From the NCBI GenBank assembly GCA_937968035.1, contig CALBTS010000081.1, positions 1-8,260 of the forward strand: a stretch of DNA of 8,260 nt, read 5' to 3'. Under the pieces are notes generated by a model. The model saw only the letters and a program-made list of their open reading frames with translations, ran no database searches and was not told where the DNA came from. How positions within the stretch are numbered: position 1 is the stretch's first letter; the number at the start of each line of letters is the position of its first letter. This document shows, piece by piece, positions 959-8,260 of this stretch. This DNA comes from an uncultured Methanomethylovorans sp. GTDB taxonomy: Archaea > Halobacteriota > Methanosarcinia > Methanosarcinales > Methanosarcinaceae. Both the position numbers and the translations under genes were made by a program.

Positions 959-996
959 GGCCATTTCCAGTGGGGTGGAGCTTCAGACCTTGGTAT

Positions 997-3819
<2,823 letters not shown>

Positions 3820-3820
3820 T

Positions 3821-3840
3821 CCTTTTATTCTTTTTTTATA
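3821..3840 (+). terminator. T-tract terminator of the complete kinase
   Basis: CCTTTTATTCTTTTTTTATA begins one base after the TAG stop (3817-3819) and includes a run of eight T broken only by C. No strong stem precedes it, which is normal for archaeal T-tract termination. The core matches the string at 626-636 after the paralogous kinase. Confidence 0.55.
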
Positions 3841-3987
3841 ACATTGGTCCACTTGTGGCAAAATAGTAGATATTAAAACATAGTACATAGGAATCCGTCT
3901 GAATCAAAAACGTATTTTGCCTCAAAAGGACAGATCGGAAGATAAGCAAAATGGAAGAGATGTTGAATAGGGTGGATCCATGCGCAC

Positions 3988-5681: not shown

Positions 5682-6646
5682 GCAGCTGCCTCCTTTATCA
5701 GATACTCGTGATGTGGATAATGCCTGTGCAGTCTGGCAGACCTCAAAAAGCCCAGGCTCATAAAGAAAGGAATCACTTTGGTGGTTCTTAAAAAGTCATT
5801 TTCGTTCTTGCTGTAATGCCACAGAAAATGACCTATATATGGTTCTGCAAGCCTACCTGAACCTTCCTGAAGCTGAAAATGGTTCTTAAGCTCGGAGCAC
5901 ATTATCCCCAGGTCCCGTGCATAGTGTGCATTATACCAAGAACTTTCAAGATCGAGAATATATGGAACATCTTTATGGAACACATAATTAGAGGGCGTTG
6001 CGTCCCTGTGTATCATACAGCCCTGCCTCTGGTCAAGCAGGGAACTGTACCACCATTTCCCAAGCAGCTGATCGAAATGGTCCCTTGTGGAGCGATCAAG
6101 CTTAAGATGGTCCAGCACACTATGAAAATTAGCGAAGTCCCTCGCCTTGTCATAATAGTCATGTCGTGTATGTTCATGGAGCCTGCGCTGCATGTGAGCA
6201 ACAGATGTAAGCCGGTCATAAAGATCGGTCTCATGTGAAAGATGCCATGCAAGAGACTTGCCCGATATATACTCGGTCACAAGGGCACAGTTGAAGTCCC
6301 GATGCATTGCTATTGGTGCGGGAACGTTTATGATGGACCTGACTGCCATAAGATTATTGAATTCCTTGGCCATTGCCTCGGAAGCATTGTATCTTTTCAA
6401 TTTTCCCGTAGGCTCTGCAAAGAACTTTACTATAACACTGTACCTCTCTCCTTTGAACTTATACCTGCATACAGTGTGTGAAGAGGGGGCGTACTTAAAA
6501 ACGTCTACTTTACAGTGTTTGTTCTTTATTCTGTCTCCAAGTGCATGTACCAGCCAATCCCGGAAAACGTCACCAGGGTCTAAAGTACTTACATGATGGT
6601 TCAAAACAGGGATCACCGCTCCAATAATTTCAGAGGAGTTATACAT
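5660..6646 (-). CDS. APH/choline-kinase-like phosphotransferase
   Basis: This 328-residue soluble protein has the aminoglycoside phosphotransferase/choline kinase fold, which moves the gamma-phosphate of ATP to a small-molecule hydroxyl. Visible landmarks are the ATP-binding Lys in YSVIVKFF (K74), a likely partner Glu (E95 in AKEFNNL), a hinge-like LVTEYISG (122-129), the catalytic loop MIHRDATPSNYVF with H213, D215 and N220, and the metal-binding ILDLES (D232, E234). All catalytic residues are present, so it should be active. An antibiotic is an unlikely natural substrate in a methanogen; a sugar, amino alcohol or lipid head group is more plausible, but nothing here decides it. It is first in an overlapping pair with the HAD hydrolase. 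ATG 6646 has only a weak ribosome-binding site (an AGGAT-like string 17 bases upstream). A palindrome at 6702-6724 sits at the predicted transcript start. Confidence 0.88.
   Translation of the reverse strand: MYNSSEIIGAVIPVLNHHVSTLDPGDVFRDWLVHALGDRIKNKHCKVDVFKYAPSSHTVCRYKFKGERYSVIVKFFAEPTGKLKRYNASEAMAKEFNNLMAVRSIINVPAPIAMHRDFNCALVTEYISGKSLAWHLSHETDLYDRLTSVAHMQRRLHEHTRHDYYDKARDFANFHSVLDHLKLDRSTRDHFDQLLGKWWYSSLLDQRQGCMIHRDATPSNYVFHKDVPYILDLESSWYNAHYARDLGIMCSELKNHFQLQEGSGRLAEPYIGHFLWHYSKNENDFLRTTKVIPFFMSLGFLRSARLHRHYPHHEYLIKEAAACLRSLG
5689..5696 (-). promoter_or_regulatory. Ribosome-binding site of HAD gene inside upstream gene
   Basis: AAAGGAGG on the minus strand, 7 bases before ATG 5681. It lies within the last codons of the phosphotransferase gene and fixes the HAD start despite the overlap. 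Confidence 0.8.
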
Positions 6647-6701
6647 CCATCCAGCTATATCATCCTATTTGTAACTATTTAGATTTCAATAGAATGCACT
6701 C

Positions 6702-6724
6702 TGTGCTGCAATGAATGCAGCACA
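6702..6724 (-). repeat. Perfect 9-bp inverted repeat, operator or hairpin
   Basis: TGTGCTGCA (6702-6710) and TGCAGCACA (6716-6724) are perfect inverted copies around a 5-base loop. GAATGCA also occurs twice in direct orientation (6692-6698 and 6713-6719). On the minus strand the palindrome lies 49 bases after the membrane protein stop and about 27 bases downstream of a TATA-like box (6746-6736), at the predicted start of the phosphotransferase/HAD transcript. That fits a repressor operator. A terminator for the membrane protein gene is possible but no T-run follows on the minus strand. Confidence 0.6.
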
Positions 6725-6735
6725 ACATCGCATAC

Positions 6736-6746
6736 ATTTATAAAAA
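6736..6746 (-). promoter_or_regulatory. TATA-like promoter of the phosphotransferase-HAD pair
   Basis: TTTTTATAAAT on the minus strand predicts a transcript start near 6714 and a leader of about 67 bases before ATG 6646. A weaker candidate (TCTAAATAG, 6687-6679) would give a much shorter leader. I cannot choose firmly between them. Confidence 0.4.
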
Positions 6747-6772
6747 CATAAACAATATGTGATCCACTTCAT

Positions 6773-7078
6773 TTATGTCAGGTGATAAGCGATCTTTACA
6801 GCATTTACAGCAATAATAGCTAAGAAAAGTACTATTATTATCAGAGTTACAAAGATCAGCATCAAACCAAGAACAAACGCTGCCGGCCACCACAATGGTG
6901 CAAACACCCATAGCCATTCGATGTCCAGGAACCCCATTGCCTTAGCAGCCACTAAAGCGATCGTTATTAATCCGGTAAATCCAATGCTCTCTTTTCTAAA
7001 AACATTTTTAACAACAACATGTGTCATGATTAACACATCATTCAGGTATTTGATGTCATGGGCTGCTTCGGGAGCCAA
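6773..7078 (-). CDS. Small integral membrane protein of unknown function
   Basis: This encodes up to 101 residues with a polar N-terminus, a first hydrophobic segment (about 33-51) and a long one (57-94) that is probably two membrane helices. Between them is the aromatic motif DIEWLWVFAPLWWP (52-65). That motif recalls small membrane proteins, common in phages and bacteria, that are often labelled transmembrane Fragile-X-F-like; this is from memory, and no function is known for them. The longest frame starts at TTG 7078, with an in-frame stop just upstream. GTG 7036 and ATG 7027 (84 residues) are alternatives, and none has a Shine-Dalgarno. TATA-like boxes at 7101-7121 would start the transcript near 7080-7090. 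I give the full frame as the upper bound; the true start may be ATG 7027. The gene stands alone between two promoters. Confidence 0.65.
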   Translation of the reverse strand: MAPEAAHDIKYLNDVLIMTHVVVKNVFRKESIGFTGLITIALVAAKAMGFLDIEWLWVFAPLWWPAAFVLGLMLIFVTLIIIVLFLAIIAVNAVKIAYHLT

Positions 7079-7100
7079 GCAGCTTTACTTAATGATTAAT

Positions 7101-7121
7101 AGTATATATTTACATATATAG
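7101..7121 (-). promoter_or_regulatory. TATA-rich promoter region of the small membrane protein gene
   Basis: The minus strand reads CTATATATGTAAATATATAC, two overlapping TATA-like boxes centred near 7117 and 7106. They predict transcript starts near 7090 or 7080. Confidence 0.45.
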
Positions 7122-7224
7122 GTTGCTACAGTCTTTTTTGACCATACTTTTATTTTTTCTGTGTCCATGATAACAATGATCTCTGTCAAGTAAAATTTTT
7201 CACATTAAAGCATGCCCGTAATCC

Positions 7225-7236
7225 ATTAATATAACT
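7225..7236 (+). promoter_or_regulatory. TATA box of the leader/acetolactate-synthase-like transcript
   Basis: ATTAATATAACT is a good archaeal TATA candidate. Its centre near 7230 predicts a transcript start at about 7254-7257, almost exactly at the ATG (7255) of the valine-rich leader ORF. The leader peptide would then be translated from a leaderless mRNA, a common mode in archaea. The structural gene would have a leader RNA of about 165 bases. Confidence 0.5.
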
Positions 7237-7254
7237 TGTCGCGTTTCTTCTTTG

Positions 7255-7323
7255 ATGTTGAACTCTACCACAAACTACACTCTTCCTAATGTATCTGTAG
7301 TAGTGGTAGTAGTATTCGCTTGA
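7255..7323 (+). CDS. Valine-rich leader peptide of acetolactate-synthase-like gene
   Basis: This is a 22-codon ORF from ATG 7255 to TGA 7321-7323, too short for usual gene calling. It starts MLNSTTNYTLPN and contains seven Val, V13 and V15-V20. Six Val codons run in a row (GTA GTA GTG GTA GTA GTA, 7297-7314), followed by Phe, Ala and stop. Two Leu are also present. It sits between a TATA box and an acetolactate-synthase-like gene, whose pathway makes valine and leucine. In enteric bacteria the ilvBN operon is preceded by a leader peptide, IvbL, with a similar valine run, where ribosome pausing at valine codons prevents transcription termination. The same logic is inferred here. The stop codon lies inside the 5' arm of a hairpin followed by a T-run (7317-7358). 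No Shine-Dalgarno precedes the ATG, but the TATA position suggests a leaderless start. The chance alternative is a GTA-type triplet repeat without translation. Confidence 0.6.
   Translation: MLNSTTNYTLPNVSVVVVVVFA
7265..7309 (+). promoter_or_regulatory. Leader hairpin 1, overlapping valine codons
   Basis: CTACCAC (7265-7271) pairs with GTGGTAG (7303-7309), and ACTAC (7274-7278) pairs with GTAGT (7297-7301). The 12-bp stem has a small internal loop and an 18-base apical loop. Its 3' arm is the valine-codon run, so a ribosome translating or paused there would open it. The apical CTTCCT (7282-7287) could also pair with AGGAGG of the downstream ribosome-binding site (7407-7412) with one wobble. 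Confidence 0.45.
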
Positions 7324-7358
7324 GCAAGAGACCATTCTGGCTCAAGTGTACTGTTTTT
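7317..7358 (+). terminator. Candidate attenuator hairpin with T-run
   Basis: CGCTTGAGC (7317-7325) pairs with GCTCAAGTG (7340-7348) as a 9-bp stem with one G-U, around a 14-base loop that itself contains AGA/TCT. Five bases later comes TTTTT (7354-7358). The 5' arm contains the leader peptide stop codon. The stem-to-T-run distance is longer than in a classic bacterial intrinsic terminator, so its strength is uncertain. A competing stem, 7345-7352 with 7375-7382 (8 bp, one G-U), shares four bases with the 3' arm and could act as an alternative fold. Confidence 0.45.
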
Positions 7359-7404
7359 GGGTTGTTCACTGTTTAGTACATTCTGTGCCAGGCTGTTTTC
7401 TTTC

Positions 7405-7412
7405 AAAGGAGG
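7405..7412 (+). promoter_or_regulatory. Ribosome-binding site of the acetolactate-synthase-like gene
   Basis: AAAGGAGG, 7 bases before ATG 7420, is a perfect Shine-Dalgarno and fixes the start. It is preceded by a T/C-rich stretch (7396-7404). Confidence 0.85.
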
Positions 7413-7419
7413 TTTGAAT

Positions 7420-8260
7420 ATGAAAGAAATGAACGGAGCAGAAGTGCTTGTCAAAAGTCTGGAGGACCTTGGGGTCAGATGCGTCTTTGGTTATACAGGA
7501 GCAGCAATCCTTCCTGTGTTCCATGCGCTTCAGAAAAGCAGTATTGAGATTGTGATAAATTCGAACGAACAATCCTCTGCATTCAGTGCAGCCGGATATT
7601 CACGGTCAAGTAGCGAGGTGGGTGTTGCCATTGTTACATCTGGACCGGCCATAACGAACACTCTCACAGCTGTTGCAGATGCTTACGGCGACAGTATTCC
7701 ATTACTTGTATTTGCAGGCCAGGTTCCGGAACACAAGATAGGTACCGATTCTTTTCAGCACATCAATGTAACAGGCGTCTTTGGAGATGCCGCCAAAAAA
7801 GTAATCCAGCTTTCCAACAATGAAGATGTTGAATCAATTGTCAAGGATGCATATTACTATGCCAGATCGGGAAAACCAGGTCCTGTGGTCATAGATTTCC
7901 CTCTTGACAAACAGCAGAAGGTCCATGATTATAAAGCCATTAACGTAAGAAGGTTCGAAGAAAGTTATCATGATGACCGGCATCTGTGTGATGACCAGTG
8001 TGAAGACTTTTTCCAATTGCTGCTGCGTTCCAAAAAGCCATTGCTTTATCTGGGAGGGGGCCTGAACTCACAGCAAGGGAGCCAGGCAATAAGGGAGTTC
8101 AATGCACATTTCAGGATACCGTCTGTAAATACGCTCATGGCAAAGGGAGTGGTTGATGAAAGAGAAGACCTGAACCTGGGAATGCTGGGCATGTTCGGGA
8201 CACCCTATGCTAATATGCTTATCCAGGAAAACGATCTTTTCTTTGCCATTGGTGTCAGGT
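7420..8260 (+). CDS. Acetolactate synthase large-subunit-like ThDP enzyme (right-truncated)
   Basis: The frame is open from ATG 7420 to the window edge, giving the first 280 residues. The N-terminal ThDP-binding (PYR) domain covers about 5-170, with catalytic E50 in NEQ, which activates the ThDP aminopyrimidine. The central domain starts near 205 (LLYLGGGL) and includes TLMAKGVVDE and GMLGMFGTPYANM, typical of acetolactate synthases. These enzymes condense two pyruvates, or pyruvate with 2-ketobutyrate, at the head of valine, leucine and isoleucine synthesis. F112, Q113 and K126 match conserved active-site positions of the family. Several signature positions differ: GYTGAA for GYPGGA, SGPAITN for SGPGATN, FQHIN for FQE-D, and GMFGT for GMHGT. 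It may thus be a divergent acetolactate synthase or a relative acting on another 2-keto acid. The C-terminal ThDP/Mg motif and any small subunit gene are off the window. A valine-rich leader ORF and hairpins precede it, which supports a branched-chain role. Confidence 0.88.
   Translation, partial: MKEMNGAEVLVKSLEDLGVRCVFGYTGAAILPVFHALQKSSIEIVINSNEQSSAFSAAGYSRSSSEVGVAIVTSGPAITNTLTAVADAYGDSIPLLVFAGQVPEHKIGTDSFQHINVTGVFGDAAKKVIQLSNNEDVESIVKDAYYYARSGKPGPVVIDFPLDKQQKVHDYKAINVRRFEESYHDDRHLCDDQCEDFFQLLLRSKKPLLYLGGGLNSQQGSQAIREFNAHFRIPSVNTLMAKGVVDEREDLNLGMLGMFGTPYANMLIQENDLFFAIGVR

Follow-up and report, generated by a model that had tools for sequence, protein, structure and literature searches.

Can an archaeon use a short valine-rich open reading frame (ORF) to control an acetolactate-synthase-like gene, as bacteria do upstream of ilvB? 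The question arises from a locus near the end of the window, by which we mean the whole stretch of 8,260 nucleotides analyzed here from an uncultured Methanomethylovorans sp. An earlier sequence-only reading described an ORF of 22 codons, among them a run of six Val codons and a seventh nearby, lying between a TATA box and a gene of the acetolactate synthase family, and our own reading of the sequence confirms this arrangement (Table 1). The same reading took the DNA to come from an archaeon, which agrees with its nearest relatives, found in Methanolobus, Methanococcoides and Methanosarcina.

Table 1. Features of the valine-rich leader and its flanking sequences, in window coordinates.
Feature	Position	Strand	Remarks
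TATA-like box TTAATATA	7226..7233	+	Starts 29 nt before the leader ATG
Leader ORF, 22 codons, MLNSTTNYTLPNVSVVVVVVFA, predicted leaderless	7255..7323	+	ATG to TGA in frame in 45/45 leaders
P1 5' arm CTACCAC, inside the ORF	7265..7271	+	Pairs with 7303-7309
Six consecutive Val codons (seventh at 7291-7293)	7297..7314	+	Codon positions compared across 45 leaders
P1 3' arm GTGGTAG, made of Val codons	7303..7309	+	Pairs with 7265-7271
Segment 2 CTTGAGC, 5' arm of 2:3, holds the leader TGA	7319..7325	+	Pairs with 7340-7346
Segment 2' AAGAGAC, purine-rich	7326..7332	+	Pairs with 4'
Segment 3 CTGGCTCAAGTGTACT	7337..7352	+	Common to 2:3 (7340-7346) and 3:4
T5 tract, loop of 3:4	7354..7358	+	Common, not a strict requirement
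Segment 4 AGTACATTCTGTGCCAG, 3' arm of 3:4	7375..7391	+	Pairs with segment 3
Segment 4' GTTTTCTTT, U-rich, behind 3:4, partner of 2'	7395..7403	+	Covariation with 2'
Shine-Dalgarno AAAGGAGG	7405..7412	+	Strong; ahead of the gene ATG at 7420
Acetolactate-synthase-like large-subunit gene, truncated where the window ends	7420..8260	+	Best NCBIfam family TIGR00118

In another part of the window, two similar histidine-kinase ends (1-531 and 970-3819) flank the gene of a small MM0924-family protein (684-893).

Conservation and codon content of the leader ORF

The leader set comprises 45 sequences, namely that of the window and those of 44 genomes of the family. All of them are single uninterrupted frames that open with ATG and close with a TGA at a fixed site, and pairwise nucleotide identity is as low as 57%, so the expectation that a Val-run ORF would be conserved upstream of orthologous genes despite divergence was borne out throughout the set. 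The leaders fall into six length classes, all multiples of three, that range from 69 to 93 nt including the stop. The spacer between the leader TGA and the gene ATG is distributed 17/15/13 across the three classes modulo 3, and is therefore unconstrained.

Valine accounts for 317 of the 1037 non-Met codons in the 45 leaders (Leu 107, Ile 20), and every leader carries between five and nine Val codons. The usage is GTA 205, GTG 96, GTT 13 and GTC 3; the run in the window reads GTA GTA GTG GTA GTA GTA. Counted back from the stop, positions 4, 5, 6, 7, 8 and 10 are occupied by Val in 43, 45, 45, 36, 36 and 37 of the 45 leaders, respectively. Among the leaders listed, the codons that break up GTA in frame are GTG, GTC, GTT, TTA, GCT, ACT, TCN and CCN, and extra Val codons have been inserted in frame separately in different lineages. 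The pN/pS ratio of the leader frame, 0.70 against 0.83 and 0.94 in the other two frames, is mildly low and, given the rough alignment, a weak test; a mild value is what would be expected if Val content and RNA pairing are what mainly matters.

How common such leaders are within one genome was assessed on contig C1 of genome G024, of which 2.376 of 2.395 Mb (120 pieces, all but the last 18 kb) were scanned for short ORFs that begin with ATG, follow a TATA-like box at a distance of 28-36 nt and precede a gene. The scan returned 652 short ORFs, six of which contain six identical residues in nine, and the acetolactate synthase leader is the sole Val case among these six. No further convincing amino acid leader of such architecture was present in the best 60 of the 652 ORFs.

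Distribution among relatives

A contig scan for the gene identified 32 loci, 24 archaeal and 8 bacterial. The archaeal loci belong to Methanolobus, Methanococcoides, Methanohalophilus, Methanosarcina, Methanohalobium and MAGs named only to higher rank, and the leader is present at all 24; a similar leader sequence was found at none of the eight bacterial loci in the 450 nt upstream (238 nt for L023). Across the 111 Methanosarcinaceae genomes, the gene occurs in 44 at an E-value of 1e-150 or better. Leader DNA matches occur in 46, and these are the same 44 genomes plus G079 and G100, whose 29-base matches lie, by eye, inside transporter-like coding sequence and were discounted. The leaders are all distinct over their full length (45/45), with 44 distinct sequences downstream of the leader stop, and the leader precedes the same gene in all 45 cases, an association beyond chance.

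An RNA model of the stretch between leader stop and gene matched 34 of 392 genomes of the phylum, a search whose stricter filters may miss weak relatives. Thirty-two of these are known carriers; the other two matches, in G297 (E-value 0.05) and G362 (E-value 0.03), fall outside the family, are weak, show no Val leader by eye and were rejected as chance.

Promoter and predicted leaderless start

The TATA-like box of the window is separated from the leader ATG by a gap of 21 nt. Boxes with 6-8 of 8 matches stand ahead of 44 of the 45 leaders; their start lies 31-32 nt before the ATG in 39, at 29 nt in the window, at 30 nt in two leaders and at 34 nt in one. For L041 and L042 the top-scoring box is located at -8, yet cttaagta is visible at the usual site. 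Archaeal transcription starts approximately 25 nt downstream of the TATA box, and this placement implies that the leader ORF is probably leaderless, in line with what the sequence-only reading had proposed from the TATA position.

A control scan of the 45 nt ahead of the gene ATG at 43 loci gave 4-6 of 8 matches (5 in 38 of the 43), together with a spacing peak of its own at 21 nt (19/43 loci). Match quality consequently weighs more than fixed spacing, and we dropped TATA spacing by itself as proof of a promoter; the control's peak reflects shared sequence, so the fixed spacing ahead of the leaders may partly reflect relatedness too. A scan of 6600-7500 for bacterial promoters returned seven promoter-like sites against 3.1 expected in shuffles, and none of these was used.

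RNA hairpins within and behind the leader

RNAalifold predicts a hairpin within the ORF (P1) and a long hairpin downstream. All seven P1 pairs are standard in 40 of the 45 leaders, and each of the other five has one broken pair. Downstream, the seven pairs of 2:3 are standard in 45/45 and otherwise invariant, the exceptions being one compensatory change (G-C to A-U in L064) and G-U forms in three others; this near-invariance offers little covariation support for 2:3. The stop codon lies within segment 2, and the overlap in segment 3 makes 2:3 and 3:4 mutually exclusive. The predicted energies of the two states are close, with means of -28.1 kcal/mol for 2:3 and -28.9 kcal/mol for 3:4 (-25.6 and -29.1 in the window).

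The combined 2'-3:4-4' structure is paired in 96.8% of cells. In this structure, 25 cells are changed on both sides, compared with 4.7 in shuffles, which ignore relatedness (0/500 reach the observed value), and with 1-4 when the structure is slid along the alignment, a control that allows for relatedness. The number of 3:4 pairs with a change on both sides is less striking, since the observed six is reached by 30 of 500 shuffles. In the 2':4' helix, three of the five pairs have changed on both sides; overall, own partners pair better than permuted ones (584 against a mean of 538.5, reached by 0/5000), with 36 distinct pairs, in a comparison that ignores relatedness. The compensatory change that L005 carries in 2':4' weakens the U-rich tract, and compensation at the cost of the U-run points to pairing more than to a terminator tract.

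The T5 tract was also considered as a terminator and dropped, being broken in several relatives (e.g., L005, L017, L062 and L064). A scan for bacterial-type terminators across 6600-7500 found none. In the window, a small hairpin, TTCAAAGGAGGTTTGAA (7402-7418), is predicted to carry the Shine-Dalgarno sequence in its loop; this hairpin was not seen in the folds of the relatives.

Ribosome position and predicted switching

For folding with a ribosome on the leader, we treated the RNA as covered to a point 12 nt beyond the first base of the A site, an assumed footprint. When at most three codons separate the A site from the stop, 3:4 is predicted to form in 45/45 leaders, with a probability above 0.9 in all of them for a ribosome at the stop itself. 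A ribosome six or more codons short of the stop is predicted to leave segment 2 open, and for an A site 6-10 codons before it, 2:3 reaches approximately 0.34-0.43 at equilibrium. The predicted switch falls 4-6 codons before the stop, where the Val codons lie. When segment 4 is left out of the folded RNA, 2:3 forms at a probability of at least 0.97 in 45/45. The choice of hairpin is thus predicted to depend on ribosome position, which is the geometry of bacterial attenuators of the trpL and IvbL kind. The window RNA without a ribosome is 0.99 in 3:4 at equilibrium, and this value, together with the low equilibrium share of 2:3 under a stalled ribosome, means that an attenuator model needs 2:3 to be kinetically favored.

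Proposed mechanism and competing explanations

We consider it probable, on these predictions, that the leader and its hairpins constitute a ribosome-mediated valine attenuator, in which a Val-starved ribosome would stall and the gene would stay on. When valine is plentiful, the ribosome would reach the stop and mask segment 2, so that segment 3 waits for segment 4; 3:4 would then form ahead of the U-rich tract 4', bringing transcription to an early end. When valine is scarce, the ribosome would halt at the first Val codon and leave segment 2 open, in which case 2:3 would form first, 3:4 would be delayed, and RNA polymerase would read on into the gene. A U-rich tract suits archaeal termination and might suffice for the archaeal polymerase. 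Against this model count the negative scan of 6600-7500 for bacterial-type terminators and the fact that the archaeal polymerase is not known to need hairpins.

The ORF, its frame and Val codons, the promoter spacing, the stop in segment 2, the overlap of 2:3 with 3:4 and the covariation of 2'-3:4-4' can all be read from the aligned sequences. The weakest links of the attenuator model are its sign and its output step, that is, termination versus masking of the Shine-Dalgarno sequence. On the latter view, which we regard as unlikely, the leader would still sense valine, and the hairpins would set ribosome access to the Shine-Dalgarno sequence of the gene, which would be free with 3:4, where the pyrimidine-rich segments are tied up, and paired with segment 4 or 4' under 2:3. 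Folding agrees with it to the extent that the site is freer in 3:4 (mean 0.72) than in 2:3 (0.25) in 45/45 leaders, and it would also accommodate the lack of a bacterial-type terminator in the scanned region and a 2':4' pairing that compensatory changes maintain even in the presence of a weakened U-run. However, control of this type would have its sign reversed, with ribosomes that complete the leader raising translation and Val starvation lowering it, an odd direction for a gene of biosynthetic type; the difference predicted is modest (mean free fraction of 0.80 with the ribosome at the stop and 0.54 with segment 2 open), and freed pyrimidine-rich stretches would be expected to pair with purine-rich ones anyway. 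Termination remains our preferred reading, given that 2:3 is the first to form, that the type of gene calls for the corresponding sign, and that a parallel exists at the bacterial locus L024, described below.

Far less probable is a structured non-coding leader, riboswitch-like or protein-bound, of which the Val ORF would be a by-product through the pairing of GTGGTAG with CTACCAC. The core AGTGGTAGT, which forms P1, is indeed invariant in the 25 sequences compared, but the frame is kept in 45/45 leaders through six lengths, in-frame Val insertions occur outside P1 in different lineages, the stop stays at a fixed site, and a search of 6700-7600 against Rfam gave no match up to E=5. We attach still less credence to the idea that the leader peptide itself acts, for instance on the enzyme, with the Val run being part of it: a Thr pair, the V-run and a final Ala do recur across the peptides, but these conserved parts coincide with RNA pairing (P1 and segment 2) and with Val content, while the rest varies freely, and conserved hairpins stand between the ORF and the gene. 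A chance ORF or a functionless GTA microsatellite has a negligible probability, for although GTA repeats can expand, the 45/45 conservation, the in-frame codon interruptions, the lengths in multiples of three and the co-occurrence with the gene contradict it.

The downstream gene and its product

TIGR00118, the biosynthetic acetolactate synthase large subunit, is the best NCBIfam family of the gene downstream of the putative attenuator. Full-length orthologs score 510.8 (L007) and 504.6 (L012) against this family, which remains the best one for them at scores below its cut-off of 538.35; the product is therefore not certain, hence our term "acetolactate-synthase-like". The best relatives of these orthologs among solved structures are AHAS. 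Judged by its family, the enzyme probably makes a Val precursor. Behind the L007 ortholog, no same-strand ORF of at least 100 aa that could be a small-subunit gene starts within 1 kb.

In E. coli, a Trp at the AHAS site compared here favors 2-ketobutyrate and thereby the isoleucine branch. At the Trp site of Arabidopsis AHAS (GMVMQWED, 6u9h), the ortholog has Leu, as do two other solved sequences. In an alignment of 13 proteins, the four leader-controlled enzymes have Leu at this site, E. coli IlvB has Gln, three bacterial homologs have Leu, Leu and Ile, and the three canonical archaeal IlvB proteins have Trp. We accordingly predict that the leader-controlled enzyme works in the branch toward valine and leucine, in keeping with the abundance of Val and the scarcity of Ile codons in its leader.

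Four genomes were examined for paralogs, and each encodes a canonical ilvB (35-37% identical) in addition to a third ThDP gene. A Val leader, defined as a short ORF with four Val in nine codons within 400 nt, precedes none of these eight paralogs (four canonical ilvB and four third ThDP genes); three of the eight have short ORFs with 5-6 V/I/L in eight codons. The homologs compared from outside the group are bacterial and 57-62% identical to the four archaeal enzymes, which makes a transfer of the gene, with or without its control, possible.

Comparison with known systems

The E. coli ilvBN leader IvbL is likewise a short Val-rich ORF, with nine Val codons, before a large-subunit AHAS gene, and the distance from leader stop to gene is 105 nt there and 96 nt here. 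The likeness to the bacterial ilvB leader drawn in the sequence-only reading thus stands for the layout and does not extend to the peptides, between which homology was not detected (BLASTP E=0.24 over 14 residues outside the Val run). E. coli IlvB, with its Gln, and the enzyme studied here, with its Leu, both lack the Trp of the three canonical archaeal IlvB proteins. In contrast to ilvBN, the archaeal locus has a TATA-like promoter and a predicted leaderless ORF; no small-subunit gene was seen behind the L007 ortholog, and no GC-rich terminator was found in 6600-7500.

T-box elements and amino acid riboswitches respond to an amino acid or its tRNA by switching between alternative hairpins. 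Alternative hairpins are the shared trait, whereas the sensor at the archaeal locus would be an ORF; the search of 6700-7600 against curated RNA families, which gave no match, led us to set aside a T-box or known riboswitch as an explanation.

A bacterial counterpart was observed in a Spirochaete MAG (L024), where positions 3770-3900 contain a Val-rich short ORF, MTVLSVVVSVLYNNGLRLLP, followed by a strong GC hairpin with a U-run before a homologous gene; MTVLSVVVSVLYNNGLRLLP begins at an ATG within a longer frame that opens with TTG. The enzyme encoded there is 57-58% identical to the archaeal ones and, like them, stands behind a short Val-rich ORF, but the leader sequence differs and the arrangement was seen in one genome only (238 nt upstream were examined in its relative L023). 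The gene was detected at an E-value of 1e-170 or better in 2 of the 46 genomes of this class. The locus looks like a classic bacterial attenuator, and it is possible that it represents the origin of the archaeal control or a parallel to it.

A further likeness is offered by the ilvBNC attenuator of Corynebacterium glutamicum. As described in PMC11857589, its leader ORF is leaderless and carries Leu and Val control codons, and its overlapping terminator and antiterminator hairpins have comparable stability and switch through a common segment, a scheme supported by mutations. The leaderless ORF and the segment-sharing hairpins resemble those predicted here. The two systems differ in that ilvBNC relies on a bacterial polymerase and terminator, while the system predicted here is archaeal and precedes an acetolactate-synthase-like gene with no ilvN seen behind it.

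Novelty and significance

The sequence-only reading knew of no established amino acid attenuator in Archaea, and none was described among the open-licence papers listed in our literature searches. According to a 2021 article, no attenuation or antitermination was known in archaea at that time (PMC8448881). Ribo-seq of M. mazei is reported to have revealed 314 unannotated small ORFs, 10% of them in 5' UTRs; the words acetolactate, attenuat and valine do not occur in the main text of that paper (PMC11456600). The parts available of two other papers on methanogens describe internal termination without leader control (PMC10450193) and valine production, with attenuation named only in general (PMC13158618).

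The type of control proposed is known from bacteria, and its occurrence in an archaeon, on a probably leaderless ORF, would be new. On balance, the evidence tilts toward this being the first archaeal ribosome-mediated amino acid attenuator, in which the ribosome on a leaderless Val ORF would decide whether transcription ends early or continues into an acetolactate synthase gene; such control would have been invented or adopted in the ancestor of the Methanosarcinaceae, in parallel to the bacterial ilvB leader. If this is true, translation would steer transcription co-transcriptionally in these archaea, so that their coupling is used for regulation, and leader-peptide control would have arisen with, or been adapted to, archaeal promoters, leaderless initiation and U-tract termination. 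Conserved across 44 genomes, the Val-codon leader is a small, concrete case open to genetic tests, and genetic tools exist for Methanosarcina.

Duplicated leaders and interrupted genes

Second, decaying copies of the leader were observed in three genomes, at approximately 8670-8860 of L098 (G064), in L126 (G063) and in L127 (G065). Each precedes a small membrane-protein-like gene and shares the strand of the working leader, which follows at a distance of 0.8-4.4 kb. The copy in G064 has ATA as its start codon, and the copy in G065 has an intact ORF and has lost the 3:4 region. This arrangement suggests that the leader was duplicated and that genes were then inserted between the copies.

Two loci carry interrupted versions of the gene. 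In a Methanohalobium MAG (G005), the gene at position 4001 of L021 stands behind an intact leader but is broken by a stop at its second codon and by a later TGA, and is a probable recent pseudogene. An ortholog with one in-frame TAG is found at G038:C2:1111971-1113680 (L095), on the same contig as the Methanohalophilus locus L016. In the Methanosarcinaceae this codon could presumably be read as pyrrolysine; alternatively, it could mark a broken gene.
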